Below are positions 25,504-39,876 of a DNA stretch of 64,000 nt, one piece after another. A program made the translations under genes and the position numbers. The stretch comes from Acidobacteriota bacterium (lineage in GTDB: Bacteria > Acidobacteriota > Terriglobia > Terriglobales > Acidobacteriaceae), in contig QIAU01000178.1 in the NCBI GenBank assembly GCA_003225055.1, positions 1-64,000 on the forward strand, in the 5' to 3' direction. The number at the start of each line of letters is the position of its first letter. The first letter of the stretch is position 1. Below the pieces are notes generated by a model, which saw nothing but the letters and a program-made list of their open reading frames with translations, did not search any database and was not told the origin of the DNA.

Positions 25504-28500
25504 TTAGAAAAGCAGTTTCAATCCCAACTGGATCGCGCGGCTGCCGCCGGATCCGATGACCGGGTTGGAAGCTGCCACATCGGGGCTGGCGCAGGCGCAG
25601 CCAAAATTTCCCGGCCCGCCGGGATCGTTGTGCGCCCATCCGTTCTGCCCGCCAAAAGGATTGGCGAAGTTCGGATGATTGAGCACGTTGAAGAACTCGG
25701 CGCGAAACTGAGCGCCAAACCGCTCCCCGAACTTCCAGTTCTTGGCCACCGACAAATCCCAGTTGCGGAATCCGGTATCGCGGAAAGTGTTACGGCCCAT
25801 CGTACCCAGGGTGAAGGGGGGAGGGATCATTACGGAGTTGCCCATCGCGTAGCAGCCGAACGCTCCCAAAGCAACATCTGCGGGACCGCTTGGGTTTCCC
25901 CCGTCGACGGTTAACGCCTGGGCGACGCAAGCCGGATTGCTGTTGTTCGGGAAATAAGGAATTCCGATGGGGCCGGACTTGAAGTCAGACGTCCTGCCAA
26001 AGAAATTCCATCGATCCGAGAGCACTTCACCGGTTCCGGTCACATCCGTAGTGGCATCCATCGGACCCCAGGGTTGAGCGCTGGAGAGCGTGACGATGGA
26101 ATTCAACTGCCAGCCCTTGAGCAGTTGTGCGAAACCTTCCTTGCCCGGGATGAGGTAGGTCATGGCCAAGGTGAAGCGGTGGCGAATATCGAAATCGCTG
26201 CTGGCATATTCCGTATGCGGAACCAGGTTGTTCTGAGGAATACCCGATCCTGCACCAAAATCCCAATTGGCGCCGACATCATCCAGGGAATGGGAGTAGG
26301 TATAGCCCACCACGGCGCTTAGTCCATGGAAGTTGCGTGAGGTCAGAGTCGTCTGCAAGCCGTTGTAGTTGGACTTGTAAATGTTCCCCATCTGGTAAGT
26401 GTTTGCGAGATAAGGGAACTTGCCGTTGAATGGCCGTGCGGCTTGCTCTGCGTCGCCACCGCTGGCGCACTGGTCCCAAGCGGGGGCGCTGGCCAGGCAC
26501 TGGGCGATGGTGCCGCCTGGCCCGGCTGTCCACCCGGCGCCCGGAGGAGGTTGATTGATGTCGTGAATTCCCACCAGCTTTGATCCATGGCTGCCCACAT
26601 ATGCGACTTCCAGGGACAGATTACTGGTCAAGGCGTGCTGGACATTCAAAGTCCAACTCCACACGTAGGGAGTCCTGAGCTTTCGGTCCACGCCGAGAAT
26701 GCTGCAGGGCGCCGCGAAGCAATCGAGCGGAGTAGTGGGGAATACGGTTCCCTGCATTCCGCTGATGGTGGGATCCCAGTTGAGACTCGAGCCAGCAAAG
26801 TTGACGGTCCCGACGGCGATCGATCCGCCCGCCGTTCCTCCGGCACCATCGATAATGGCGCCGGTGGGAATGGTGCTAAGACCCATGGAGTTGTTGAGGG
26901 CGAGGAATGACTCCCAGTTTACGGTCTCGTAAGTCAGACCTCCGCCGCCGCGTACCACAGTTTTGCCCGTACCTGTCGTATCCCATGCGAACCCAAAACG
27001 GGGAGCGAAATTGTTGTGATCGCCGTCGTAAGGCACGCTAATCCCCTTGCCAACCTGCAGCAGCCCGTTGGCGGCATCGAAATTGCCCAGCAGATTACGG
27101 TTATCCTTTATTACCGTGTTCAGCTCGTAGCGCATACCCAAATTCAACGTTAGAGTCTTAGTAACGCGCCAATCATCCTGGAGGAAGCTGGCGTAGCCCC
27201 AGTCGTGGATCTGACGCGTGGGATCACCGATCAGTTGGCTCCCCTTATCAGGAACTCCAGCGAAGAAGTCTTCCAGTGAGGTGGCTCCGGTGAAGACGTC
27301 ATTGACTCCGAATCCGAATTTGATTCGGCCGCGCACACCGCCATACGCCCCGCCCGTGAAGCCGTCATGATGGAGCTCTGCGCCGAACTTAAGAGCATGC
27401 TTGCCGCGTATGTACGAAACGTGGTCCACCAATTGGAATCTGGTGTCGGGCCCCTGTATCTTCGGCCAGTTAAAGCCGCCCAACTCCTGGGGGAAGATAT
27501 AAAACGGGGCAATGTTGATTCGGGGCAATCCGCCGTATAGCGGATTGGTAACACCGGTGTTGATTCCATAGGAAGAGGCGGGCTTGTTGTGATCCGCAGT
27601 GAAAGTGGGCTGATAGAGGCGGTTGTAACCGAAACGGACTTCGTTGACCCAGGTGGAATTCGGGATCCAAGTCCAGTTCGTCCCCAGCACTTGCGCCCGA
27701 GTGTGAATCTGGGTCAGCCACTGTGGCTGGAGTTGGCTCGCGTCCGATACGGTTCCGGAGTTGTTGCCGAAGAAATACCGGCCACTAAAAATATGGCTCT
27801 GCGTGATGTGGTAATCAATTTTCCCAACCGCATTATCGGCGCTGACATTGTTAGGAAGTCCGAAGGTTATCAGGGTTGGATCGGCGGGGTTAGTCCCGTT
27901 ATTGGTTGGAAATCCTGTGCCATTGCACGAGACGGGAGGACCTAATGTGCAGCCCCCGATCTGCAGACTAACGTTGCTGATCGGGACATTTCGCGCCTGC
28001 AAGGCAGCGATGGCATCCACCAGACTCCTCGCCGGGTCGGCTCCCAGCGAGACCGTAGCCGGCGTCGACAACTGGGTAATGTTGCCGACCTCGTAGCGCT
28101 GGCCCTCGTAAGCGCCGAAATAGAACAGCTTGTCTTTCATAATAGGCCCGCCGAGGGTCCCACCGAACTGCTCTAAGTTTCTCGGCTGTTTGGGTGTGCC
28201 AGTCACATTGAAATAGTTGCGCGCATCGAAGGGAGTATCCCGGCCAAACGCGTAAGCGGTACCGTGGACCGCATTGGTCCCCGACTTCAAACCGACGTTG
28301 ACGATCGCGCCCGGCTTCCAACCGAACTCCGCCGGAGGATTTTGCTGCAGGTTAAATTCCTGGATGGAGTCGACGGGCAGGATGGTCGCCGAATCTCCCG
28401 CAATTCCGGCCCCATTAATGATGCTCTGGCCGGAGAAGGGCTCGCTGTTAAACAAGCCGTCAATCAGGTAAGCGTTGTCTTCGGCGCGAAGGCCGTTGGC

Positions 28501-29061
28501 GCTGGTCGTGGAGAAGCCGCCGCCCGGATAACGGATGACGCCGGGACGCAGCTGAAGCAGGTTTTCGTAGTTCCGACCGTTCAGGGGCAGATCGTTAATC
28601 TCTTTATTACTGAGCGTGCCCCCCAAGGTCGAGGAGACCGTATTCAACATGGGAATTTCGCTCGAGACTACGACGGTCTCGCTTACATCGCCCGGTTGCA
28701 GGACAAAATCGATTAGCGCTTCTTGCGCCACTTCCAGCGGGATGTTCTGGCGCTCGACGCTCTTAAAGCCCTTGGCCTCGGCCCGCACTTTGTAGGAGCC
28801 GGGTGCCAGATCAGGGGCTAGATAGGCGCCCGCATCATCGGTGGTCAAGGTTCGGGTGACACCTCTCTGCTCATCGGAGACCGTGACCGTGGCACCTTTC
28901 AAGGCGGCACCGGATGGGTCCGTAACCGTCCCCAGAATGCGGCCCGTGTAGCTCTGACAAAAGAGAGGAAGACACGTCAGGAGCAGGAACCAGGCGATGG
29001 GCAAGACCCGCCTAACTCGGCCCCCGCAATGACGCTGGACGCTCGCACTAGAGGGACGCAT
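25504..29061 (-). CDS. TonB-dependent receptor 2, Oar-like
   Basis: Outer-membrane transporter of 1185 residues. ATG 29061 has GGGAGG about 6 bases upstream. Order: basic N-terminus and signal peptide (to about residue 38), carboxypeptidase-regulatory-like domain (GRILGTVTDPSGAALKG ... GSYKVRAEAKGFKS), plug (NDLPLNGRNYENLLQLRPGV), long barrel ending GLKLLF. It is the first gene of a two-gene unit with the alpha/beta hydrolase and is divergent from a GntR-type regulator 122 bases away. A TTGACA/TAGAGT promoter and a TGGT-N11-ACCA dyad lying over its -10 suggest control by that regulator. The imported substrate is presumably what the divergent operon degrades. Confidence 0.94.
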   Translation of the reverse strand: MRPSSASVQRHCGGRVRRVLPIAWFLLLTCLPLFCQSYTGRILGTVTDPSGAALKGATVTVSDEQRGVTRTLTTDDAGAYLAPDLAPGSYKVRAEAKGFKSVERQNIPLEVAQEALIDFVLQPGDVSETVVVSSEIPMLNTVSSTLGGTLSNKEINDLPLNGRNYENLLQLRPGVIRYPGGGFSTTSANGLRAEDNAYLIDGLFNSEPFSGQSIINGAGIAGDSATILPVDSIQEFNLQQNPPAEFGWKPGAIVNVGLKSGTNAVHGTAYAFGRDTPFDARNYFNVTGTPKQPRNLEQFGGTLGGPIMKDKLFYFGAYEGQRYEVGNITQLSTPATVSLGADPARSLVDAIAALQARNVPISNVSLQIGGCTLGPPVSCNGTGFPTNNGTNPADPTLITFGLPNNVSADNAVGKIDYHITQSHIFSGRYFFGNNSGTVSDASQLQPQWLTQIHTRAQVLGTNWTWIPNSTWVNEVRFGYNRLYQPTFTADHNKPASSYGINTGVTNPLYGGLPRINIAPFYIFPQELGGFNWPKIQGPDTRFQLVDHVSYIRGKHALKFGAELHHDGFTGGAYGGVRGRIKFGFGVNDVFTGATSLEDFFAGVPDKGSQLIGDPTRQIHDWGYASFLQDDWRVTKTLTLNLGMRYELNTVIKDNRNLLGNFDAANGLLQVGKGISVPYDGDHNNFAPRFGFAWDTTGTGKTVVRGGGGLTYETVNWESFLALNNSMGLSTIPTGAIIDGAGGTAGGSIAVGTVNFAGSSLNWDPTISGMQGTVFPTTPLDCFAAPCSILGVDRKLRTPYVWSWTLNVQHALTSNLSLEVAYVGSHGSKLVGIHDINQPPPGAGWTAGPGGTIAQCLASAPAWDQCASGGDAEQAARPFNGKFPYLANTYQMGNIYKSNYNGLQTTLTSRNFHGLSAVVGYTYSHSLDDVGANWDFGAGSGIPQNNLVPHTEYASSDFDIRHRFTLAMTYLIPGKEGFAQLLKGWQLNSIVTLSSAQPWGPMDATTDVTGTGEVLSDRWNFFGRTSDFKSGPIGIPYFPNNSNPACVAQALTVDGGNPSGPADVALGAFGCYAMGNSVMIPPPFTLGTMGRNTFRDTGFRNWDLSVAKNWKFGERFGAQFRAEFFNVLNHPNFANPFGGQNGWAHNDPGGPGNFGCACASPDVAASNPVIGSGGSRAIQLGLKLLF

Positions 29062-29078
29062 AGAACCTCCCGAGGTTG

Positions 29079-29097
29079 TGGTCGGACAACTCTACCA
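29079..29097. promoter_or_regulatory. Putative GntR/FadR-type operator, site 1
   Basis: TGGT (29079-29082), 11 bases, ACCA (29094-29097). It lies over the -10 of the TonB receptor 2 promoter. The same architecture recurs at 29142-29160, and the two centres are 63 bases apart, about six helical turns. FadR-group regulators typically bind TGGT...ACCA dyads, but usually with a 3-base spacer. Confidence 0.45.
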
Positions 29098-29116
29098 CCG
29101 AACAGAAGCATGTCAA
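29089..29116 (-). promoter_or_regulatory. Sigma-70-like promoter for TonB receptor 2
   Basis: On the minus strand TTGACA (29116-29111) is followed after 16 bases by TAGAGT (29094-29089), about 28 bases before the receptor start codon. The -35 is perfect and the -10 matches four of six positions. Confidence 0.5.
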
Positions 29117-29141
29117 GTATTTATGCCGGTTTGTGCAAGTA

Positions 29142-29160
29142 TGGTATAAAGGTCAGACCA
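29142..29160. promoter_or_regulatory. Putative GntR/FadR-type operator, site 2
   Basis: TGGT (29142-29145), 11 bases, ACCA (29157-29160), containing the inner palindrome GGTC-A-GACC at 29151-29159, which resembles the compact FadR/LldR-type operator TGGTCAGACCA. It ends 23 bases before the GTG of the regulator gene, suggesting autoregulation. Confidence 0.5.
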
Positions 29161-29183
29161 CAGGCCCGGGGGGAAGGTTCTTT

Positions 29184-29915
29184 GTGTACAAAGCGGTCCA
29201 ATCGTCGCGACTCTACGAGCGAATCATCGAGCAGATCGAGGAGTCGATCCTGAAGGGCTCGCTCAAAACCGGCGACCAGCTTCCGGCCGAGCGCGAATTA
29301 GCGCAGCAATTTGGTGTGAGCCGGACGGCGGTGCGGGAGGCAGTCAAGGCTCTGCGCGAAAAAGGACTGGTGGAAGCCTATTCCGGGCGCGGAACATTCG
29401 TTACCAACGGGACATCCCAGGCGATCCGCCACTCATTGGACTTGATGACGCGAATCAACCAGCAGGATGGATTGGCTCACCTGGTTGAAGTGCGCGAAAT
29501 TCTCGAGCCTGAAATCGCAGCCATGGCCGCGATACGCATGGATCGACAACAACCCCTGGCAAACATGCGCGAAGCAGTCGCGGTGATGGATCGCGCGTTA
29601 AAGGATCTGGACGCTTACATCGAGGCCGACCTCGGTTTCCACCTCGCGCTGGCCGAGGCGGCCCAGAACCCCATCATTTTGTCTCTCATTGATTCGATTG
29701 TGGGTTTGCTGCGGGAACAGCGGGCGCGAATCTTCTACGTGGAAGGCGGCCCGGAGCGCGGACAGTTTCATCACAAGCGCATCCTCCAGGCTTTAGAGCA
29801 GCGGGATCCGGAAAGGTCGCGTGACGCGATGCGCGCTCATCTGCAACAAGTGCGCGAAGACTCGCGAGTTTCGACGAGCACACCGGACGCGACAAGTGCA
29901 AAGTCCATTTCCTAA
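29184..29915 (+). CDS. FadR-subfamily GntR transcriptional regulator
   Basis: Regulator of 243 residues. The N-terminal winged helix (LYERIIEQIEESILKGSL ... LPAERELAQQFGVSRTAVRE ... GRGTFV) is followed by a mostly helical FCD ligand-binding domain with likely metal-ligand residues (EVREILEPE, D...HLALAEAAQNP, HHKRILQALEQRD). I start at GTG 29184 because GGGGGGAAGG precedes it and the family begins just there; longer in-frame starts read through the operator region. It heads the plus-strand run with the oxidoreductase 18 bases downstream and is divergent from TonB receptor 2. FCD regulators usually sense organic acids, in agreement with the genes around it. Confidence 0.9.
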   Translation: MYKAVQSSRLYERIIEQIEESILKGSLKTGDQLPAERELAQQFGVSRTAVREAVKALREKGLVEAYSGRGTFVTNGTSQAIRHSLDLMTRINQQDGLAHLVEVREILEPEIAAMAAIRMDRQQPLANMREAVAVMDRALKDLDAYIEADLGFHLALAEAAQNPIILSLIDSIVGLLREQRARIFYVEGGPERGQFHHKRILQALEQRDPERSRDAMRAHLQQVREDSRVSTSTPDATSAKSIS

Positions 29916-29933: not shown

Positions 29934-30815
29934 ATGGCGAAGCTTGGCTTTGTCGGTCTCGGAGTGATGGGAAGCCAGATAGTGAACCGCTTGCTCGGCA
30001 AGGGGCACGTCGTGACCGGCCACAATCGCACGCGCTCCAAGGCGGAGTGGCTGATCGAGCGCGGCATGAAGTGGGCAGATAGTCCCCGTGCCGCCGCCGC
30101 TGCGGCCGACGTGACCTTTGCCATGGTGAGCAACTCCGCTGCGCTAGAGGCCATCACCGACGGGCCGGATGGGGTTTTGGCTGGGCTCGGCCAAGGCAAG
30201 ATTTTCGTCGACATGAGTACCGTGAGCCCTGCCGTGAGCCGCAGCCTCGCGGCCAGAGTTCGTGAAAAAAAAGCCGACATGGTCGATGCCCCGGTGTCGG
30301 GAAGCGTAATCACGTTACAGGAAGGAAAGTTGTCTGTGATGGTCGGCGGCTGTCTTGAAACTTTCGAGCGCGTGAAACCGCTGCTCCAGGATATCGGATC
30401 CAAGGTTACTTACGTTGGCGAAAACGGCCTGGCGCTCTCCATGAAAATTGCCATCAATATAAGCCTGGCTACCCAGATGCTGGCCTTCTCTGAAGGCGTG
30501 TTGCTGGCTGAAAAGAGTGGGATCCCGCGAAAAACCGCGGTAGAGGTTCTCACCCATAGCGCGGTTGCCTCGCCGATGATTCAATATCGAGGACCCTTCG
30601 TTCTCGAGCAACCCGAAGAAGCCTGGTTCGACGTCGGCATGATGCAAAAGGATATGGGGCTGGCGCTGGAGATGGGACGACGCCTTGACGTGCCACTCCC
30701 GACCACCGCTCTCTCCAATGAATTTCTCACCGCCGCGCGGGCCATGGGCCTGGCCAAGCAGGATTTTGCAGTGATGTTCGACGTATTGGCCCGTATGTCG
30801 GGAGTAGGGAAATGA
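29934..30815 (+). CDS. NAD(P)-dependent beta-hydroxyacid dehydrogenase (3-hydroxyisobutyrate dehydrogenase family)
   Basis: Cytoplasmic oxidoreductase of 293 residues, the usual family length. The Rossmann motif GFVGLGVMG is at residues 5-13, the substrate-binding motif DAPVSGS at ~118-124, and the catalytic Lys171 is in GLALSMKIA. The family oxidises or reduces 3-hydroxy acids such as 3-hydroxyisobutyrate, tartronate semialdehyde or sulfolactaldehyde; substrate cannot be read from sequence. Its stop overlaps the E1-alpha start by 4 bases (ATGA), so the two are coupled. Its place between a FadR-type regulator and a 2-oxoacid dehydrogenase suggests a step before oxidative decarboxylation. Confidence 0.9.
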   Translation: MAKLGFVGLGVMGSQIVNRLLGKGHVVTGHNRTRSKAEWLIERGMKWADSPRAAAAAADVTFAMVSNSAALEAITDGPDGVLAGLGQGKIFVDMSTVSPAVSRSLAARVREKKADMVDAPVSGSVITLQEGKLSVMVGGCLETFERVKPLLQDIGSKVTYVGENGLALSMKIAINISLATQMLAFSEGVLLAEKSGIPRKTAVEVLTHSAVASPMIQYRGPFVLEQPEEAWFDVGMMQKDMGLALEMGRRLDVPLPTTALSNEFLTAARAMGLAKQDFAVMFDVLARMSGVGK

Positions 30816-31810
30816 CGGCCACCACGTACCGTACGGGTGCTGATGCGAGAATCTCAGTGGAACAATGGATCCGCATGTATCGCCGGATGGTGAGCATTCG
30901 TCGGTTCGAGGAACAGGTGAATGAGCTGTACACGCGGGCCCTTATGCCTGGTCTGGCGCATCTCTATATTGGCGAAGAGGCGGTGGCAGTAGGGATATGC
31001 GAAGCGCTCCGCTCTGACGATTACATCACGAGCACGCACCGCGGCCACGGACATTGTCTGGCCAAAGGGGCTTCGCCCGACCGGATGTTCGCCGAGTTGC
31101 TGGGCAAGGAAGCGGGGTATTGCCGCGGCAAGGGCGGATCGATGCACATTGCCGATCCGGCCACCGGCAATTTGGGAGCGAACGCCATCGTGGCGGGAAG
31201 CATGGGTATTGCCACCGGGGCTGCATTCTCTGCGAAGCGGCTGCGCACCAATCGGGTTGTGGTGTGCTTCTTTGGCGAAGGAGCACTGGGACAGGGCGTG
31301 CTATATGAGGTGATGAACCTGGCTCAATTATGGAAGCTGCCGGTCATCTACGTCTGCGAAAACAATCTGTATAACGAATACACCCACTACTCCGAAACAA
31401 CTGCGGGCGACATTCTCGCTCGCGCTACAGCCTTCGGATTAAGCGCGGAGAGTGTCGACGGGCAGGATGTGCGCCTGGTGCATGAAGCAGCAGCACGCCT
31501 GGTTGAGGCTTCGCGCCAGGGCAAAGGTCCCGCCTTCCTGATGTGCAAAACCTACCGCTATCACGGACATCATGTAGGCGACATTAACCGCGAGTACTAC
31601 CGCTCGAAGCAGGAAGAGCAGGGCTGGAAAACCGAACGCGACCCCATTCAGCGCTTGAGAGATTGGCTGATCAAAGAGAATCTCACGGACGCGGCCAGCT
31701 TGGATCGCATTGACTCAGAGGCGAAAACCGAGATTGAGAAAGCTGTCGAGTTCGCACTGGCGGCGCCCTATCCCAAGCCGGGGGAGGTGGATCAGGACGT
31801 TTATGCCTGA
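30812..31810 (+). CDS. Thiamine-diphosphate-dependent dehydrogenase E1, alpha subunit
   Basis: Alpha subunit (332 residues) of a 2-oxoacid or acetoin dehydrogenase E1, which decarboxylates the substrate and passes the acyl group to lipoyl-E2. The TPP-binding stretch FGEGALGQGVLYEVMNLAQLW has the GDG...N-type layout with GEG. The motifs THRGHGH, RGKGGSMH, NNLYNEYTHYSE and TYRYHGHHVGD are those of the acetoin/pyruvate-type alpha2-beta2 E1. Length and the THYS motif fit the acetoin dehydrogenase group better than branched-chain enzymes, but substrate remains open. It overlaps both neighbours, as expected for a tightly coupled operon. Confidence 0.93.
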   Translation: MTATTYRTGADARISVEQWIRMYRRMVSIRRFEEQVNELYTRALMPGLAHLYIGEEAVAVGICEALRSDDYITSTHRGHGHCLAKGASPDRMFAELLGKEAGYCRGKGGSMHIADPATGNLGANAIVAGSMGIATGAAFSAKRLRTNRVVVCFFGEGALGQGVLYEVMNLAQLWKLPVIYVCENNLYNEYTHYSETTAGDILARATAFGLSAESVDGQDVRLVHEAAARLVEASRQGKGPAFLMCKTYRYHGHHVGDINREYYRSKQEEQGWKTERDPIQRLRDWLIKENLTDAASLDRIDSEAKTEIEKAVEFALAAPYPKPGEVDQDVYA

Positions 31811-32795
31811 AGCGGTCCGTGAGTTGACATTTGCGCAGGCGGTGCGAGAAGCGCTCGCCGAGGAAATGCGCCGCGACGAGCGGGTCTGCATCTTGGGCGA
31901 AGATGTAGCGGAAGCCGGCACTCCGTTCAAAGTCTTGTCCGGCCTGGTAGAGGAATTCGGCAAGGAGCGCGTGCTGGATACGCCGATTTCCGAAGCCGGA
32001 TTTACCGGACTTGCGGTCGGCGCCGCGATGACCGGCATTCGCCCCGTGGTGGACATCATGTTCGGCGACTTCATCACCCTGACCATGGACCAGATGGTGA
32101 ACCAGGCGGCCAAAGTCCACTACATGTCAGGAGGGAAATGGAAGGTCCCCATGGTGATGCGCACGACGCTAGGAGCCACGCGCCGTTCGGCAGCGCAGCA
32201 CTCGCAATCGCTGCACGCGTGGTTCAGCCATGTGCCCGGGCTGAAGGTTATTTTGCCGTCCACACCCTACGACGCGAAGGGGCTGTTGAAGACGGCGATC
32301 CGCGACGAGAATCCTTGTGTCTTCTTTGAAGACAAGATGATGTACAAGCTGAGAGGGCCCGTACCGGAGGAGGAATATACCATCCCGCTGGGTAAGGCAG
32401 ACGTCAAACGCGCGGGCCGAGACATTACCATTGTCGCGACCAGCAGCATGGTGCAGGTGGCGCTGGGAGCAGCGACCCTGCTGGAGGAAAGCGGGATCAG
32501 CGCGGAAGTGATCGATCCGCGCACGACTTGGCCACTGGATGAGAAGACTCTGATTGAATCGGCAAAGAAGACTTCGCGGGCTATCGTGGTGGACGAGGGC
32601 TACGTCCGTTACGGTGTTACGGCCGAGATCGCGGCCGTGATTTCTGCCGGCGCTTTTTACAATCTGGACGCGCCAGTGAAACGAATCGGAGCCATGCACG
32701 TTCCGATTCCGTTCTCGCCGCCGCTGGAAGATCTGACGGTGCCCACGGAGAACGTCGTGTTTGAGGCGGCCCGGGAGCTTTGCGCGCACGCGTGA
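31803..32795 (+). CDS. Thiamine-diphosphate-dependent dehydrogenase E1, beta subunit
   Basis: Beta subunit of 330 residues. ATG 31803 overlaps the end of the alpha gene by 8 bases; the frame is open upstream but that part is alpha-coding. Family motifs: REALAEEMRRDERVCILGED, DTPISEAGFTGLAVGAAMTG, PVVDIMFGDFITLTMDQ and, in the C-terminal transketolase-like domain, EVIDPRTTWPLDEKT. It pairs with the alpha subunit to form the E1 heterotetramer. The next gene follows after 78 bases with its own strong ribosome-binding site. Confidence 0.94.
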   Translation: MPEAVRELTFAQAVREALAEEMRRDERVCILGEDVAEAGTPFKVLSGLVEEFGKERVLDTPISEAGFTGLAVGAAMTGIRPVVDIMFGDFITLTMDQMVNQAAKVHYMSGGKWKVPMVMRTTLGATRRSAAQHSQSLHAWFSHVPGLKVILPSTPYDAKGLLKTAIRDENPCVFFEDKMMYKLRGPVPEEEYTIPLGKADVKRAGRDITIVATSSMVQVALGAATLLEESGISAEVIDPRTTWPLDEKTLIESAKKTSRAIVVDEGYVRYGVTAEIAAVISAGAFYNLDAPVKRIGAMHVPIPFSPPLEDLTVPTENVVFEAARELCAHA

Positions 32796-32873: not shown

Positions 32874-34220
32874 ATGGCACTGCCAACTTCTGGAACCATG
32901 GCGGTGGATTGGGAACAGCGGGTTGACTTCGACCGTCTGCGTCGCGAGCGTCTGGCGCGGGCCAAGGCGCTGCTGGCGAAGTCGGAGATGGGAGCCCTCC
33001 TTTGCTTTGACATGAACAATGTTCGCTACCTGACGGCCACGCACATCGGCACATGGGCGCAGGACAAGGCGAATCGTTTCACTCTGCTGCCGCAAAACGA
33101 TGAACCCATCCTCTGGGACTTTGGCTCCGCTGCCCGCCATCACCAACTGCATTGCCCCTGGCTGGGCGAGCGCTCACGGCCGGGCATCTCCATGTTGCGT
33201 GGCGCGATGTCGCCGGAAATGGGTCGCGCCGAAGACGTCGCCCGCAAGATTCGGGTTGAGCTCGAAATGCGCGGTCTGCACAAGGAACCGCTGGGCATCG
33301 ACATTATCGAACCCCCGGTGCTGTTTGCTCTCGAGAAGGAAGGGATTAGAGTCGTCGATGGCCAACAGGTCATGTCCGATGCGCGGGTCATCAAGACGGA
33401 GGACGAAATCGCGCTGTTGAACATGTCGGCCATGATGGTGGATGCGGCATACGACGAACTCTACCGCGCGATGAAGCCGGGCCTGCGCGAGAACGAGGCG
33501 GTTGGGCTAGTTAGCAAGGTTTTGTACGATCTGGGCTCAGAGTATGTCGAGGCAGTCAACGCCATCTCCGGCGAGCGCTGCAACCCGCATCCGCACGTCT
33601 TTTCCGATCGCGTGCTGCGCCCGGGCGATCCCGTCTATTACGACATCCTGCATTCCTACATGGGATACCGCACCTGCTACTACCGGTGTTTCACGGTGGG
33701 CTACGCATCCCATGCGATGGTCGATGCATACAAGCGGTGTCGCCAGTATCTCGACGCTGCGATTGAGCTGGTCCGGCCAGGCCGCACAACAGCTGAGATC
33801 GCGGCGGTTTGGCCCCGGGCGCAAGAGTTCGGTTTCCCCAACGAAGAAGCATGTTTTGCGTTGCAATATGGGCATGGGGTAGGTCTCGCCATCTGGGAGA
33901 AGCCGGTGATCAGCCGGCTGGTTTCCTTCGAACATCCGCACCAGATCAAGCCGGGTATGGTGTTCGCCCTCGAGACATTCTGGCCTTCGACCGACGGTTG
34001 GAGCGCGGCGCGTATTGAGGAAGAAATTGTCGTGACTCCGACTGGCCACGAAGTGATCACCCGCTTCCCGGCGGAAGAGCTGCTGGTCGCCGGGGCACAC
34101 TATTTCACGGTGAATGGCCCGCTGCCCACCACCCGCGAGACCGAAACTGCCCCGAGCCAAGGCATCATTGACATGATTGAAGCCAGCTCGAAAACGGAAA
34201 AGGTAGGAGTTTCCGAGTAA
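32874..34220 (+). CDS. M24-fold protein (Xaa-Pro peptidase/creatinase-like) with altered metal site
   Basis: Protein of 448 residues; ATG 32874 follows AGGAGGTAG. An N-terminal creatinase-like domain (to ~170) precedes a pita-bread domain. Canonical M24 enzymes bind two metals through Asp-Asp-His-Glu-Glu. Here the equivalents are Asp257 (YYDILHSYMG), Cys268 exactly 11 residues later where the second Asp belongs (GYRTCYYR), His334 (GHGVGL), Glu367 (ALETF) and Glu382/383 (RIEEE). Loss of that Asp argues against ordinary aminopeptidase P activity; creatinase and DMSP lyase DddP show that this fold can do non-peptidase chemistry. It sits between E1-beta and E2 of a dehydrogenase complex, so it may act on the pathway substrate. 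Its function is unknown. Confidence 0.8.
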   Translation: MALPTSGTMAVDWEQRVDFDRLRRERLARAKALLAKSEMGALLCFDMNNVRYLTATHIGTWAQDKANRFTLLPQNDEPILWDFGSAARHHQLHCPWLGERSRPGISMLRGAMSPEMGRAEDVARKIRVELEMRGLHKEPLGIDIIEPPVLFALEKEGIRVVDGQQVMSDARVIKTEDEIALLNMSAMMVDAAYDELYRAMKPGLRENEAVGLVSKVLYDLGSEYVEAVNAISGERCNPHPHVFSDRVLRPGDPVYYDILHSYMGYRTCYYRCFTVGYASHAMVDAYKRCRQYLDAAIELVRPGRTTAEIAAVWPRAQEFGFPNEEACFALQYGHGVGLAIWEKPVISRLVSFEHPHQIKPGMVFALETFWPSTDGWSAARIEEEIVVTPTGHEVITRFPAEELLVAGAHYFTVNGPLPTTRETETAPSQGIIDMIEASSKTEKVGVSE

Positions 34221-34258
34221 ATCGTTCGGGCTAAAATCGCTCGCGATTGATCCCTTTT

Positions 34259-35440
34259 ATGCCTATCGGCGTTGTTATGCCCGCTCTGGAAATGGCGCAG
34301 GAAACCGGCAAGCTTATCGCCTGGCGGAAGAAAGAAGGCGAGAGTGTCGCCAAGGGCGAAACTCTGCTGGAAGTGGAAACCGACAAGGCGGTAATGGAAA
34401 TTGAAGCCCCGGGGGACGGTATTCTCGCTGGCGTCAAAGTGCGCGAAGGCGCTGAAGTGCCAGTCGGCCAGACCATCGCATGGATTGTGCGGCCCGGTGA
34501 AGCTCCGCCCACGGAAGTGTCGTCCTCGGAAATTAGTGGGCGAACGATGACTTCTGCCGCCCGCGCCGCCGCGCCTGTCCCAACAACTTCGGAGCCGCCC
34601 TCCGGAGCGAATCCAGACATTTCTCCCAAAGCTCGTCGCCTTGCCCGCGAGCACGGCATCGACATCCGTCAACTCCGCGGGTCGGGACCTGACGGTGCAA
34701 TTCTGGCTGAGGACATTCTTGCCGTTGTGGCAGCGCAGGGAACACCGGCTCCTGCCGATGCCGAGAACCTGGGTCCGGTTGGGCGGCTCATGGCCGAGCG
34801 AACGACCCAGGGCTGGACTACGGTTCCGCATTTCTTCGTCGTGCGCCACCTGGACGCCGGTGCGCTGGTTCAGGCGCGCAACAAGCTAGCACCCGCCATC
34901 GAAAAGACGCATGGTATTCGGTCCACCCTAACTGACCTGCTGACTGCGCTGGTTGCCCGGGTACTGCCGAAACACCCGCGAGTGAATGCGAGTTGGAGCG
35001 GCACCAGCATACGTCTGAACAAAGATGTGAACATTGCCATTCTAATGGCGGTGGACGAGGGCGTCGTAGCGGCCGTGATTCACAATGCTGATAGCTGCGA
35101 CCTGGCTGCAATTGCCTGGCAGCGGCACGAACTGGCTGAGCGGGCGAGAGCGGGCCGGTTGCGTCCAGCTGACGTGTCGGGTGCAACTTTTACGATCAGT
35201 AATCTTGGGATGTACAACGTTGACGCCTTCAGCGCGATCATCACCCCACCTCAGGCCGCAATTCTGGCGGTTGGCCAAATCGCCGATCGGGTTGTGCCGG
35301 TGGAGGGCCGGCCCAGCGTCCGGCCTATGATGACCATGACTCTCTCCGCAGATCACCGAGTTGCGGATGGTGCGCGGGCGGCGGCGTTTCTTAACGACCT
35401 GGCTGAGGCTATTTGCGAACCGGAAAAGCAACTGCCGTAA
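34259..35440 (+). CDS. 2-oxoacid dehydrogenase E2 (dihydrolipoamide acyltransferase)
   Basis: Acyltransferase core of the complex, 393 residues from ATG 34259. Order: one lipoyl domain with the lipoylated Lys43 in ETDKAVMEIEAP; an Ala/Pro-rich linker; a peripheral subunit-binding domain (ISPKARRLAREHGID ... GAILAEDIL); a catalytic domain ending with the active-site motif DHRVADG. It begins 38 bases after the M24 gene and has no clear Shine-Dalgarno. With E1-alpha and E1-beta it makes a 2-oxoacid or acetoin dehydrogenase complex; no E3 lipoamide dehydrogenase is present in the window, so E3 must be shared from elsewhere. It is the last plus-strand gene of the run. Confidence 0.92.
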   Translation: MPIGVVMPALEMAQETGKLIAWRKKEGESVAKGETLLEVETDKAVMEIEAPGDGILAGVKVREGAEVPVGQTIAWIVRPGEAPPTEVSSSEISGRTMTSAARAAAPVPTTSEPPSGANPDISPKARRLAREHGIDIRQLRGSGPDGAILAEDILAVVAAQGTPAPADAENLGPVGRLMAERTTQGWTTVPHFFVVRHLDAGALVQARNKLAPAIEKTHGIRSTLTDLLTALVARVLPKHPRVNASWSGTSIRLNKDVNIAILMAVDEGVVAAVIHNADSCDLAAIAWQRHELAERARAGRLRPADVSGATFTISNLGMYNVDAFSAIITPPQAAILAVGQIADRVVPVEGRPSVRPMMTMTLSADHRVADGARAAAFLNDLAEAICEPEKQLP

Positions 35441-35493: not shown

Positions 35494-38262
35494 TCAGCCC
35501 GTATTGTGTAGCCCGGCCGCGATACCGTTGATGGTCGCTGCTAACGCGTAGTTCAGTGCCTCGCTCTCCGTTCCGGCTCGCTTCCGGCGCAGGAGGTCCA
35601 CTTGGATGAGGCTCAGCGGGTCGACATAAGGATTGCGCAGTTTGATCGATCGTGAGAGCACAGGATTACTCTCCAGCAGGTCGGTCTGACCTGTGACGGC
35701 GAGAATGACGCGCCGAGTACGGCAAAACTCGTCGTCCAGCATGCTAAAAACGGACTCACGAACGCCAGGATCAGAGACCAACCCTGCGTATAAGCGCGCA
35801 ATGGTGAAGTCAGCCTTGGCCATGGCGAGCTCGACGTTGCGGATCATATCCGCGAATAAAGGAAAGTCGCGCATCATGTCGTGCAACAGTCGATCATTGT
35901 CGGGCTTGGCTGCGAACTGTTCGAGGGCATGCCCCACTCCGAACCAGGCAGGCACCGCGTGCCGGCTCTGCATCCAGCCAAAGACCCAAGGGATGGCGCG
36001 CAGGTCCTCGAGCTGGCGGCTCTGGCCGCGACGTGGCGGTCGTGACCCAATCTGTGCGTGCTGCAACTCGTTAACCGGCGTTGCCTGATCGAAGTAGATG
36101 AGTACGTCGGGGTTCTCCGCGATGTTACGACGATAGAAACCAAATGCCTCTTCCGACATCGCTTCCATCGCTTCGCTCCAGCGACTCTCGGCGCCGGGTT
36201 GCGGTCCGTCCGGACGAGTCAGAGCTTCCAGGGATGCGGCAATCATCAACTCAAGGTTCCACTCGGCCAGGGCGGGGTCCGAGTACTTCCAATTGAGGAC
36301 TTCCCCCTGCTCGGTAATGCGAATTTCGCCGTTAAAATCTCCTGCTGGCTGTGCCAAAATCGCCGAGTGCGTGGGGCCACCCCCCCGGCCCACAGTGCCG
36401 CCGCGGCCGTGGAACAGACGTAACTTCACATTGTATTTGCGCGCGACGCAGTGCAGTTCGCGATGAGCCTTGTGCAGTTCCCACGTGCTCGTCAGCATTC
36501 CCCCATCTTTGTTGGAATCGGAATAACCCAACATCACCTCCTGAGAGCGGCCCCAGGAGTCCAGCAGGTGCTGATACTCCGGGGCGCACCAGATCTTCTC
36601 CATCACCAGCGCCGCCCGGCGCAGGGCGCCGATGGACTCGAACAGGGGAACCGGCATCAGGCCCGGATCGGCGTCGCCTCCGGCAATTCCGACCCCTGAC
36701 AGCGCAGCTAACCTGATGACAGCGAAGACGTCGTCTTCTGAATCAGCGTTGCTGATGACGAATTGGCGAATTGCTTCGGGGGGATACACCTTCTTCAAAT
36801 GCGCAATCGTGCGGAACGTTTCTAGCAGCTGGTCAGTTTGTGCTGAAAGTTTGGGTGGCAGTTCCGCCGCCGATCCGCCATGGGACAAAGCCGCATTCAT
36901 TTCCTGTAAAGCCTGCGCCTGCACGCGGGCATGCTGACGGCTGTCGAGGGAATGAAGGTGGAACCCGAAGGTGCGGATTTTTCGCAGCAGCGGATCGACG
37001 AGCAGCGACGCCAATCGCCGCCCCCGATTGGCGCACAGGCTGTCTCGCACCAGCATAAGGTCGGATTCCAGTTCGGCTGCAGAACAGTAGGCATGGGGTT
37101 GTGCGGCCGCCTGTCGTGTGTAGCGCAGCCGCGTCTGGACACAGTCGAGGAACAGGCGGTAGATTTCGCAGGGGGAAATTCGATGCGTATGTTCTGAGCC
37201 AAGGCGTTTCTCGTATTCTTGGGCGCGGCTGCGGAGCGCATCGGAGACGGCAGCCTGCCGCACCGACGAGCTCAGGTTCTCGATCACGCGGTCGACTTCG
37301 GCCAGGTAGTGATCAATGATCACATTCCGCGCCATCTGCAATGCTTCGCTGGTCGAGGCATCGGTTACATGAGGATTGCCATCGCGGTCACCGCCGATCC
37401 ATGATCCGAATTTCAGAACGCAAGGCACCTCGACGTCGTCGAGAAAAACTCCGTAAACCTGCGCAACCGATTCGGCGATCTCCTCGTATAACTTCGGGAG
37501 CGTCTCGAACAAGACCATGGGGTAATAGTCCAGACCCATGCGAATCTCGTCCGTTACCGTGGGCATGCTCAGACGTACTTCATCGGACTGCCATAACGCC
37601 GTGATCTCCCCCAGGATTCGGGACTCAATCTCTGCCGCCTCGCTGCCTGCGATGGGAAAGCGGTCGAGATCCTGGAGATACTGAGCAATGCGGCGCCGCT
37701 TCATCAATACTGTGCGGCGGGCGACCTCGGTCGGGTGGGCCGTGAATACGGGTGTGACGGAGACCTGGGAAAGTGCCACTAGCGTCTGTTCAGCGCTGAG
37801 CCCGGCGGACTTCATCCGCCCCAGGGTGCCCCGCAATGAGCCTGGCAAAGGCGGTTGGTTCGGGCGCAATCGCGCCGCGCGCCGTCGTCGCTTTCGATGG
37901 TTGGTCTCGGCGAGATTCGTCAGCTCGAAGTAAATGGCGAAAGCCTTGCTGACCTTGTGCGAATCCTCGACGGCGAGGCTGCTTATGATCTCCCGCGCCT
38001 GCAAAAGCGGCTCATCCTCGAAATTCGCCGGACTCGGATCTTGATGCCGGTGCTGAATGAGAAGCCGGCGCAAATGTTCGACCACATCGAGCAAGGCCTC
38101 GCCGCCTTGTTCAACGAGAACCTTGCCGAGCAGCACGCCCAGCGACCGCACATCACGGCGCAACGGCACTTCTTTCGAGAGGCTGGTGGTCTCAGCCGTC
38201 GACTCAGCGAGGCGGGCCTGTTGGTCCTCTCCACTCCACAGCGGCATCTCCGGCATGGTCAT
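35494..38262 (-). CDS. ppc: Phosphoenolpyruvate carboxylase
   Basis: Anaplerotic cytosolic enzyme, PEP + bicarbonate to oxaloacetate + phosphate; 922 residues, full family length. The catalytic motif VFTAHPTE carries the active-site His, and GYSDSNKDGG and GRGGTVGRGGGP supply the PEP/bicarbonate-binding loops. The C-terminus ends GIAAGLHNTG, the conserved PEPC tail, so the protein is complete. ATG 38262 (MTMPEMP) is the most upstream plausible start. It is convergent with the E2 gene and probably an independent transcription unit. It replenishes the TCA cycle, which would suit growth on acids that enter as acyl-CoA, but no direct link to the neighbouring operon is visible. Confidence 0.96.
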   Translation of the reverse strand: MTMPEMPLWSGEDQQARLAESTAETTSLSKEVPLRRDVRSLGVLLGKVLVEQGGEALLDVVEHLRRLLIQHRHQDPSPANFEDEPLLQAREIISSLAVEDSHKVSKAFAIYFELTNLAETNHRKRRRRAARLRPNQPPLPGSLRGTLGRMKSAGLSAEQTLVALSQVSVTPVFTAHPTEVARRTVLMKRRRIAQYLQDLDRFPIAGSEAAEIESRILGEITALWQSDEVRLSMPTVTDEIRMGLDYYPMVLFETLPKLYEEIAESVAQVYGVFLDDVEVPCVLKFGSWIGGDRDGNPHVTDASTSEALQMARNVIIDHYLAEVDRVIENLSSSVRQAAVSDALRSRAQEYEKRLGSEHTHRISPCEIYRLFLDCVQTRLRYTRQAAAQPHAYCSAAELESDLMLVRDSLCANRGRRLASLLVDPLLRKIRTFGFHLHSLDSRQHARVQAQALQEMNAALSHGGSAAELPPKLSAQTDQLLETFRTIAHLKKVYPPEAIRQFVISNADSEDDVFAVIRLAALSGVGIAGGDADPGLMPVPLFESIGALRRAALVMEKIWCAPEYQHLLDSWGRSQEVMLGYSDSNKDGGMLTSTWELHKAHRELHCVARKYNVKLRLFHGRGGTVGRGGGPTHSAILAQPAGDFNGEIRITEQGEVLNWKYSDPALAEWNLELMIAASLEALTRPDGPQPGAESRWSEAMEAMSEEAFGFYRRNIAENPDVLIYFDQATPVNELQHAQIGSRPPRRGQSRQLEDLRAIPWVFGWMQSRHAVPAWFGVGHALEQFAAKPDNDRLLHDMMRDFPLFADMIRNVELAMAKADFTIARLYAGLVSDPGVRESVFSMLDDEFCRTRRVILAVTGQTDLLESNPVLSRSIKLRNPYVDPLSLIQVDLLRRKRAGTESEALNYALAATINGIAAGLHNTG

Positions 38263-38499: not shown

Positions 38500-39876
38500 T
38501 CATTCGGACCCTGGCACGTGGCTAGTGGCTGCCGGTGGATCGCTGCCGATATTAAATATTTGAAATTCGCGGATATGTGCCTCTCTCGACGAGGAGAGGA
38601 TGTTCAGGCGAACGCGCGAAGCGGTCACCGGAGGGAAACGATCTATGCGTTTGTGGCCGATTGCATTGCCTTCGACGAGGGAGTTCCAGCCTTGGTTGGT
38701 CCATGCCTCAATGCGAAAATGCTCCACGTGCTGTCCATCATTCAGCCATTCCATCACTAACGTATGGTCAAACCGCACTGGCTTCGCAAACTCGGTCTCA
38801 AGCACCGCATGATGAGAGCCGGCGGGTGCCGACCAGAAGGTAGCAGGATCGCCATCGAGCGCGGCCGAGGTGTTGTCTGCTTTGAGATGTTCTTTCGCTA
38901 CCAGATTCTCCGTGTAGCGTTTGCGGAGAGCTACGCCGAATTCTTCGAGTCGCTTGACGTCGGCATCCGGCAAGAGACCGCGGCGGTCTGGCGCGAGGCC
39001 AAGCATCAACTGGCCGCCTCTCCCCACAGTTTGTTCATACGTAGAAATCAGCTCCCCCACTGACTTGAGAGTTGCCTCTTCATTCGGATGCCAAAACCAG
39101 AGGTTCTTGTGCAATGGCGTGTCAGCCTCCACCGGACGCCAGCGCAGATAACCATGCCGGTCCAGGACGTTCCAGTTCTCATAGGGGATCGTTCCATCCT
39201 CATTTCCTGCCCAGCGGATGTCCCCATATTCAAATAACGCAGCGTCGGCGAATACCAGCGTGTTGGGCTGAAAAATGCGGAGGTTTTCGATGATGCGCGG
39301 AAAGTTGTAGACATGGCCTTCGCTGCCAGCCCCATCCAGCCAGAACTCCACCAGCTCGCCGTAATGCGTGCCCAATTCCTGCAACTGCGCAATGTAATAC
39401 TGGTCGTATTGGCTGGAATTCTTGTAGCGGGGTTCGTGGCGATCCCAGGGAGAAAGATAAAGACCGAATTTCAGCCCCAAGGTTTGCGCCGCGTCTGAAA
39501 CTTGGCGCACCAGATCGCCCTGTCCATTCTCCCAAGGGCTGCTCTTTACGCTGTATTCGGTTTCGTTTGTCGGCCAGAGACAGAAACCGTCGTGGTGCTT
39601 CGCGACCAGAACCACGTACTTCGCACCCGACGCTTTGATCGCGCGCATCCACTGGTTCACATCAAGTTGGCTGGGAGCAAAAACCTTAGGGTCCGCTGTC
39701 CCGTCGCCCCATTCGCGGTCCAGGAATGTATTGGTGCCGAAATGGATAAGCACTCCAAACTCCAGGTCCTGCCACGCCAGTTGTTGTGGCGAAGGCTTAA
39801 TGTCGGTGAAGTTTTGCGCATGAGCAGGGCCAAGCGAGACACAAGCAAGGACAAGCGCAACTATGAGCATTCGCAT
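38500..39876 (-). CDS. Secreted alpha-L-fucosidase (GH29) with C-terminal discoidin-like domain
   Basis: Glycosidase of 458 residues with a signal peptide (cleavage near AHAQ, residue 20). GH29 features: FGVLIHFGTNTF, AKHHDGFCLWP, LYLSPWDRHEP and the nucleophile Asp181 in VEFWLDGAG. The last ~120 residues (TFWSAPAGSHHAVLETEF ... IREFQIFNIG) look like an F5/8-type carbohydrate-binding domain. It removes L-fucose from fucosylated glycans, acting in the periplasm or outside. The gene lies just downstream of an SDR and a zinc dehydrogenase on the same strand (21 bases from the SDR), which may oxidise the released sugar. Confidence 0.92.
   Translation of the reverse strand: MRMLIVALVLACVSLGPAHAQNFTDIKPSPQQLAWQDLEFGVLIHFGTNTFLDREWGDGTADPKVFAPSQLDVNQWMRAIKASGAKYVVLVAKHHDGFCLWPTNETEYSVKSSPWENGQGDLVRQVSDAAQTLGLKFGLYLSPWDRHEPRYKNSSQYDQYYIAQLQELGTHYGELVEFWLDGAGSEGHVYNFPRIIENLRIFQPNTLVFADAALFEYGDIRWAGNEDGTIPYENWNVLDRHGYLRWRPVEADTPLHKNLWFWHPNEEATLKSVGELISTYEQTVGRGGQLMLGLAPDRRGLLPDADVKRLEEFGVALRKRYTENLVAKEHLKADNTSAALDGDPATFWSAPAGSHHAVLETEFAKPVRFDHTLVMEWLNDGQHVEHFRIEAWTNQGWNSLVEGNAIGHKRIDRFPPVTASRVRLNILSSSREAHIREFQIFNIGSDPPAATSHVPGSE

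Follow-up and report, generated by a model that had tools for sequence, protein, structure and literature searches.

The M24B fold is shared by Xaa-Pro peptidases and by enzymes that are not peptidases. The ectoine hydrolase DoeA and creatinase are non-peptidase hydrolases of small molecules, and the DMSP lyase DddP is likewise not a peptidase. M24 metallopeptidases carry the metal ligand set D, D, H, E, E. In E. coli aminopeptidase P the two aspartates are Asp260 and Asp271 (numbers from entry titles), and we take Asp271 to be a bridging ligand. Xaa-Pro dipeptidase and aminopeptidase P also carry histidines four residues before and seven residues after the ligand histidine; by spacing these are His350 and His361 of the E. 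coli enzyme, which are presumably catalytic. For DddP, the RdDddP study gives Tyr366 and Asp377 as invariant in the lyases (PMC4108388).

Here we describe a protein with a predicted M24B fold and a cysteine at the column of the bridging aspartate. It is encoded in a stretch of 64,000 nucleotides from an Acidobacteriota bacterium, the whole of which was analysed and is called the window below. The fold and the superfamily were known already; the Cys-type subfamily appears to be a new one.

Family assignment and predicted fold

The ORF at 32874-34220 (+) encodes 448 amino acids with a single Pfam domain (PF00557, Peptidase_M24), whose score of 119.6 bits (E 2.1e-34) against a cut-off of 23 places the protein in the M24 fold family. 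Twelve NCBIfam models matched, and none of the 12 reached its cut-off. When the protein was aligned to its relatives, the five M24 ligand columns fell on D257, C268, H334, E367, and E382. The preliminary description had read Asp257, Cys268, His334, Glu367, Glu382, and Glu383 in this ORF, and all of them are present; it had also counted Glu382/383 as a kept ligand, which holds for E382, on the ligand column, but not for E383, which is not at a ligand position. The spacing from 257 to 268 is the same as that from Asp260 to Asp271 in aminopeptidase P, and Cys268 falls on the Asp271 column. The gene and its neighbours are as follows.

25504..29061, minus strand: large divergent protein that we take from its appearance to be TonB-dependent-transporter-like (ORF; opposite-strand homologues upstream in other loci)
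29076..29915, plus strand: GntR/FCD transcriptional regulator, start codon uncertain (Pfam/NCBIfam)
29934..30815, plus strand: beta-hydroxyacid dehydrogenase (beta-HAD) of the 3-hydroxyisobutyrate / tartronate-semialdehyde reductase family (Pfam/NCBIfam)
30812..31810, plus strand: E1-alpha of a 2-oxoacid dehydrogenase complex (Pfam/NCBIfam, E1 comparison)
31803..32795, plus strand: E1-beta of the same complex (Pfam/NCBIfam, E1 comparison)
32874..34220, plus strand: predicted M24B-fold protein, Cys variant, with D257, C268, H334, E367, E382, H239, L330, and W341 (Pfam, alignment, AlphaFold, fold matches)
33642..33644, plus strand: codon of Asp257, the first ligand (position computed from 32874)
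33675..33677, plus strand: codon TGC of Cys268, in the motif GYRTCYYR, at the bridging-Asp column (ORF reading and orthologue comparison)
34247..35440, plus strand: E2 with lipoyl, E3-binding, and acyltransferase domains (Pfam/NCBIfam)

For E1-beta, the ATG at 31803 was chosen as the start; a longer ORF begins at the TTG at 31710, and searches were run from 31710 or 31800. Farther along on the minus strand are a gene at 35494-38262, which we take to be phosphoenolpyruvate carboxylase-like, and near it one at 38500-39876, presumably a secreted alpha-L-fucosidase by its look.

A first AlphaFold model made from close orthologues only was poor (pLDDT 61.8). With an input that combined the window protein and 16 orthologues with seven viral M24 rows, the mean pLDDT was 76.9, and Asp257 and Cys268 were predicted to lie on adjacent strands (253-262 and 265-275). 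The top Foldseek matches of this model were DddP lyases (E 7.6e-27). VIA-align gave Z values of 37.7 for Xaa-Pro dipeptidase, 36.4 for DddP, 36.3 for DoeA, and 35.1 for creatinase, all within three units; among the 50 matches listed the values ranged from 29.4 to 37.7, and these matches were M24-type as far as titles tell. The likeness to creatinase comes from the fold comparison alone (Z 34.7-35.1). The predicted fold is M24B, and the fold alone does not pick a function.

Conservation of Cys268

The orthologue scan covered one genome per bacterial or archaeal species, used search patterns that exclude the Cys motif, and gave 158 relatives. The best 80 of these, which are 81-94% identical to the window protein and all from Acidobacteriota by record titles, were kept. 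All 80 have Cys at position 268 and none has Asp, and D257, H334, E367, and E382 are kept in 80/80 as well. The codon of Cys268 is TGC in 64 and TGT in 16 of these best 80 relatives. A private mutation or a base-call error at this position, the explanation that would have undone the preliminary description, is thereby ruled out. The gene of L007 differs from that of the window at 29, 12, and 229 sites at codon positions 1, 2, and 3, respectively; since 229 of the 270 differences are at third positions, the gene appears to be under strong constraint. L045 and L018 showed about 260 differences at every position, which was taken as an insertion/deletion shift, and they were not used.

Alignment A1 consists of the window protein and 52 of the 80 loci (L058 was excluded for a stop in the range, the other 27 by subsetting), while the counts of Cys268, of its codons, and of site residues cover all 80 loci. 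A second cysteine, Cys236 in a GERC motif, is invariant in the 53 rows of A1; this column is Cys in the bacterial Cys rows and Thr in two haloarchaeal rows. Cys236 is a possible partner for Cys268.

Distribution and phylogeny of the Cys type

Relatives with 52-65% identity were found on plasmids of Rhodococcus, Streptomyces, Paenarthrobacter, and Rhodobacteraceae, and all 11 that were fetched (L109-L114, L116, L129-L132) carry GYRTCYYR. Two haloarchaeal relatives (L115 and L123, 35-37% identity) carry GYRSCYYR. Terriglobia contain additional Cys types, three at 53% identity (L187, L188, L193) and one at 36% with GYKSCYYR (L191). The cysteine was thus present at the 268 column in 13/13 relatives read from Actinomycetota, Rhodobacteraceae, and haloarchaea; together with the 80/80 count among the best 80 of the 158 relatives, this bears out the earlier proposal that it is a subfamily feature. 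Among the rows read, all relatives with Asp at this column were at most about 35% identical. The haloarchaeal and L191 proteins resemble the window protein in the GYR-S or GYK-S before CYYR and in the ligand set, but they are only 35-37% identical and have one extra residue between Asp and Cys, and clade support is weak for those that are tree rows (L191 is outside the tree). Where annotated, they are called only 'M24 family metallopeptidase'.

The tree was made from 50 chosen rows after removal of the columns of window residues 262-273, and it leaves out L132 and L185-L193. The 27 bacterial Cys rows formed one clade (100/100), which the two haloarchaeal Cys rows joined weakly (82/43), and a minimum of two Asp-to-Cys changes was required. 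One independent change was in L097-L101, which belong to another M24 group of Acidobacteriota and also have Gly in place of Glu382, while their sister L096 keeps both Asp and Glu. Cys at the 268 column can therefore also accompany a degraded site.

A match at E 1e-20 was found in 20 of 297 sampled Acidobacteriota genomes, and 11 of the matches, including that of the window's genome, were at least 79% identical. The family alignment A2, searched at E 1e-40 in 200 sampled genomes of the class, found 46 with a match, a number that includes Asp types. The distribution of the gene is thus patchy. Viral contigs gave no close relative: there was no match with the window protein, seven matches at about 23-28% identity with one query, and two prolidase relatives with another. 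An M24 family separate from these, of Asp type and with a GYFID motif and about 31-35% identity (L105-L107, L124, L144-L146, L185, L186, L189, L190), occurs in several Acidobacteriota genomes that also have the Cys type, and in Haloarcula as well.

Gene module in Acidobacteriota

The genes of the window are in the order divergent transporter-like gene, GntR/FCD regulator, beta-HAD, E1-alpha, E1-beta, M24, E2. This order was compared with eligible loci, that is, loci of the best 80 of the 158 relatives with enough flank. E1-beta was at most 2.2 kb upstream of the M24 gene in 71/74 eligible loci, E2 was directly downstream in 66/70, and beta-HAD was upstream in 61/63 (all except L074 and L083). 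A homologue of the transporter-like gene was on the opposite strand upstream in 39/56 eligible loci, and thus the gene at 25504-29061 is probably part of the pathway. A semialdehyde dehydrogenase was just upstream in 23/56; 15 loci had both this gene and the transporter-like gene and nine had neither. Several loci have a DctA-type transporter downstream.

Some loci depart from this arrangement. L026 and L079 have GntR, beta-HAD, and M24, and L143 has ALDH, beta-HAD, M24, and LigM, with no E1 or E2 in the stretches examined; L067 is without E2, and in L081 the M24 gene is alone. Since L026, L079, and L143 carry beta-HAD and M24 without E1/E2 alongside, beta-HAD is the most constant partner of M24. 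The preliminary description had argued from the placement between E1-beta and E2 that the protein serves metabolism; the conserved module agrees with a metabolic setting, but the placement itself is not universal, as these three loci show. In L187 and L188, the M24 gene is located after E2 and its Cys-type product is only 53% identical to the window protein, while E1-beta (83-84%), E1-alpha (74%), beta-HAD (70-71%), E2 (60-61%), and ALDH (67-68%) are more alike. By sequence, we read this M24 gene as a putative replacement by a related Cys-type gene. If so, the activity of M24 is presumably needed, since the gene was replaced by a Cys-type relative while the operon genes stayed.

The E1 subunits of the cluster resemble pyruvate E1 more than branched-chain E1; E1-alpha scored 210.8 bits with human pyruvate E1, 118.8 with human branched-chain E1, and 136 with the Thermus 2-oxo acid E1. 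Elsewhere in the genome of the window there are three more matches to the E1 family and one more to the E2 family, and the C292 set is 30% (E1-alpha), 44% (E1-beta), and 31% (E2) identical to the cluster. Therefore, the complex of the cluster looks accessory, an extra one, and a housekeeping pyruvate dehydrogenase was ruled out on the same grounds. A valine-type pathway was rejected since E1-alpha is closer to pyruvate E1 than to branched-chain E1. Degradation of pantothenate/pantoate (amidase, oxidations, 2-oxoisovalerate dehydrogenase) was attractive but was also set aside because E1-alpha is closer to human pyruvate E1, and the literature searched held nothing to the point on it.

Neighbourhoods in other lineages and hints to the substrate

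All five Rhodobacteraceae plasmids that were opened have M24, E1-alpha, E1-beta, a lipoyl/E2-type protein, succinate-semialdehyde dehydrogenase, and E2 in a row, and the plasmid records with E1-beta of more than 60% identity number 18 and coincide with the 18 Rhodobacteraceae records in which M24 is 52-54% identical. More distant E1 sequences (27-43% identity) are near M24 in some carriers of other phyla. In Haloferax mediterranei, E1-beta and E1-alpha adjoin M24 (0.2 kb), and about 6.5 kb from it is a succinate-semialdehyde dehydrogenase 52% identical to the Terriglobia one. Fused E1 genes (33-38% identity) are about 2 kb from M24 in Streptomyces sp. YIM 121038 and about 13 kb from it on a Paenarthrobacter plasmid, each with a beta-HAD-family gene, and Streptomyces sp. 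NBC_01340 has a partial E1 about 8.5 kb away. No E1 was found around M24 in the stretches opened of Rhodococcus, Paenarthrobacter SD-1, the R1 plasmid unnamed1, and three haloarchaeal records; one of the E1-less Paenarthrobacter stretches contains lpdA. Outside Acidobacteriota, M24 is thus paired with a 2-oxoacid dehydrogenase in some, but not all, carriers. An NAD(P)-dependent oxidoreductase of Haloferax was considered as beta-HAD, but Pfam gives an epimerase-type protein, and therefore beta-HAD is not claimed for haloarchaea.

In Paenarthrobacter, other neighbours are two-component phenol hydroxylase-like genes, RidA, and amidase; Streptomyces has an HpaB-type hydroxylase, and Rhodobacteraceae have sugar-type ABC transporters and SDRs. 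On the plasmid of Paenarthrobacter sp. R1 (L111, 8986-10368), a Cys-type M24 gene is a few genes from sulR, which we take to encode the flavin reductase of sulfonamide degradation, together with RidA and enoyl-CoA hydratase genes. Despite the M24 copies on Paenarthrobacter plasmids, degradation of the sulfonamide heterocycle was rejected because other carriers are without sad genes in the stretches read. The part available to us of the paper on sulfonamide degradation names no peptidase (PMC10873849). Two DddP-like Asp-type M24 genes have annotated genes beside them as well, trimethylamine methyltransferase family and sarcosine oxidase in L126 and a ring-hydroxylating dioxygenase in L128, which suggests other M24 enzymes of unassigned role.

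A LigM/DesA-type O-demethylase, above the LigM cut-off and below the DesA cut-off, is directly downstream in L143 and in L073, the latter being the only such locus among the 80 (best 80 of the 158 relatives). In L187 and L188, an O-demethylase, identified by similarity alone, is about 6 kb away. These neighbours are the only hint to the substrate class, and a thin one. A LigB-type dioxygenase gave no match in 10/11 carrier genomes searched, the window's included, which speaks against general aromatic ring cleavage, and a LigM orthologue is absent from the window's genome (best match 29%). Therefore, the link to O-demethylases is limited to some genomes.

Active site and alternative readings

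In the 80 orthologues (best 80 of the 158 relatives) and in the 29 Cys rows of the tree, which come from Acidobacteriota, Actinomycetota, Rhodobacteraceae, and haloarchaea, the second Asp of the metallopeptidase set is replaced by Cys, and in all 29 rows the other four ligands and Glu342 are invariant. Near Cys268 in the alignment, R266 and Y270 are specific to the clade. His239 is present in 29/29 Cys rows; since 6/7 prolidase-type rows carry a His one alignment column further on, it makes no contrast with prolidases. On balance, we regard these proteins as a probable non-peptidase M24B subfamily, with the signature GYR[ST]CYYR and a fixed Cys for the bridging Asp, that would act as a metal hydrolase with a thiolate ligand in a module of small-molecule catabolism. 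As every other ligand is kept, a metal site of this kind is favoured, without proof, over a nucleophilic Cys.

It is unlikely, in our estimate, that Cys268 is the catalytic nucleophile of a metal-free or single-metal hydrolase of the creatinase/DoeA type, which would form a thioester- or thioimidate-like intermediate with His334 and Glu as helpers. Creatinase and DoeA, both non-peptidases, share the fold (Z 34.7-36.3), and RidA, flavin reductase, or amidase genes are near several actinobacterial M24 copies. The NCBIfam models of DoeA also match the window protein, but weakly, and their scores (59.2 bits for NF038259 and 55.4 for TIGR02993) are far under the cut-offs of 575 and 613; moreover, four ligands kept in 29/29 rows are what would be expected if a metal were still bound.

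That the protein is a DddP-like lyase, acting by elimination on a beta-substituted acid, is quite improbable. The window protein shares with DddP the fold, the length, the N-terminal domain, and four of the five ligand columns, and DddP is its top Foldseek match, its best sequence match among solved structures (E 3.9e-23), and its top NCBIfam model. However, the score with that model, the equivalog NF043017, is 113.8 bits against a cut-off of 600, and Tyr366 and Asp377 of DddP align with Glu325 (beside a gap, and thus unsure) and Ile340. In addition, four DddP-like rows have Asp at the 268 column and Trp at the column of His239.

We consider it very improbable that the protein is a genuine Xaa-Pro peptidase in which Cys is tolerated as a ligand and which is co-transcribed with its neighbours without a pathway reason. 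The M24 domain is far over its cut-off and the highest Z (37.7) is to Xaa-Pro dipeptidase, but the histidines flanking the ligand His are replaced and the gene occurs together with a catabolic module. Position 330 is His in 7/7 prolidase-type rows, Leu or Asn in 29/29 Cys rows, and Leu in 80/80 orthologues; position 341 is His in the same 7/7 rows and Trp in 80/80 orthologues (in both cases the best 80 of the 158 relatives). By spacing, we take these two columns to be those of His350 and His361 of aminopeptidase P. Elsewhere in the subfamily, four of the five actinobacterial rows have Trp at position 341 and the fifth has His, as do five Rhodobacteraceae rows and the types at 53% identity (L187, L188, L193); two haloarchaeal rows have Tyr. 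The Rhodobacteraceae members, which keep His at 341, are without His at 330. The view that this is not the peptidase site has therefore gained from the Leu330 and Trp341 that accompany the Asp-to-Cys change. Because of the changed 330 and 341 columns and the unmatched Tyr366 and Asp377, the site agrees neither with that of a standard Xaa-Pro peptidase nor with that of DddP.

Least probable is that the protein is a pseudoenzyme and partners the E1/E2 complex in a structural or regulatory role: M24 is between E1-beta and E2 in most loci, but its ligands are invariant in 80/80 orthologues (best 80 of the 158 relatives), L026, L079, and L143 keep M24 and beta-HAD without E1/E2 alongside, and the 53%-identical Cys-type substitute in L187 and L188 is easier to explain by a need for the activity than by a specific protein contact.

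Discussion

The inherited Cys variant recurs in bacteria and archaea beside genes of small-molecule breakdown, and it is therefore probably a metabolic enzyme and not a peptidase. The module consists of M24 and beta-hydroxyacid dehydrogenase, often with a semialdehyde dehydrogenase and usually with a dedicated 2-oxoacid dehydrogenase complex. Since the recurring neighbours are dehydrogenases of hydroxy-, oxo-, and semialdehyde-acids, M24 may release a short acid or aldehyde from a larger compound. In the thiolate-ligand reading that we favour, one or two thiophilic metal ions would be held by Asp257, Cys268, His334, Glu367, and Glu382, with Cys268 as a terminal or bridging thiolate. An imported compound would be attacked at a C-N or C-C bond, with activation by either a metal-bound water or His239, in a PHPH segment. 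This would yield a short oxo-acid or semialdehyde for the neighbouring dehydrogenases to convert to an acyl-CoA.

A more specific version of this scheme is put forward tentatively. The M24 centre might be dinuclear, thiolate-ligated, and possibly bridged by Cys. The compounds degraded would come from plants and might be methoxylated aromatics, and the centre would hydrolyse a C-C or C-N bond in one of their side-chain or ring-cleavage intermediates. Its product would feed the semialdehyde and beta-hydroxyacid dehydrogenase pair and the private 2-oxoacid dehydrogenase complex, and the pathway would have spread between bacteria and haloarchaea.

In the titles and abstract openings of the open-licence literature searched, we found no description of the Cys-type subfamily or of a thiolate variant of the M24 metal centre. 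Annotation pipelines label Cys-type proteins as Xaa-Pro peptidases or M24 metallopeptidases; contrary to these labels, their sequence, ligand set, and neighbourhood point to a catabolic enzyme. If Cys268 is a ligand, the subfamily would provide a thiolate variant of the M24 metal centre, and if the dinuclear, Cys-bridged reading is true, this would be new chemistry for the fold. In soil Acidobacteriota, actinobacteria, haloarchaea, and marine roseobacters, the subfamily is the marker of a pathway that often has its own 2-oxoacid dehydrogenase complex. Because cultured species such as Edaphobacter lichenicola, Phaeobacter inhibens, and Haloferax mediterranei carry the gene, the pathway can be put to the test.
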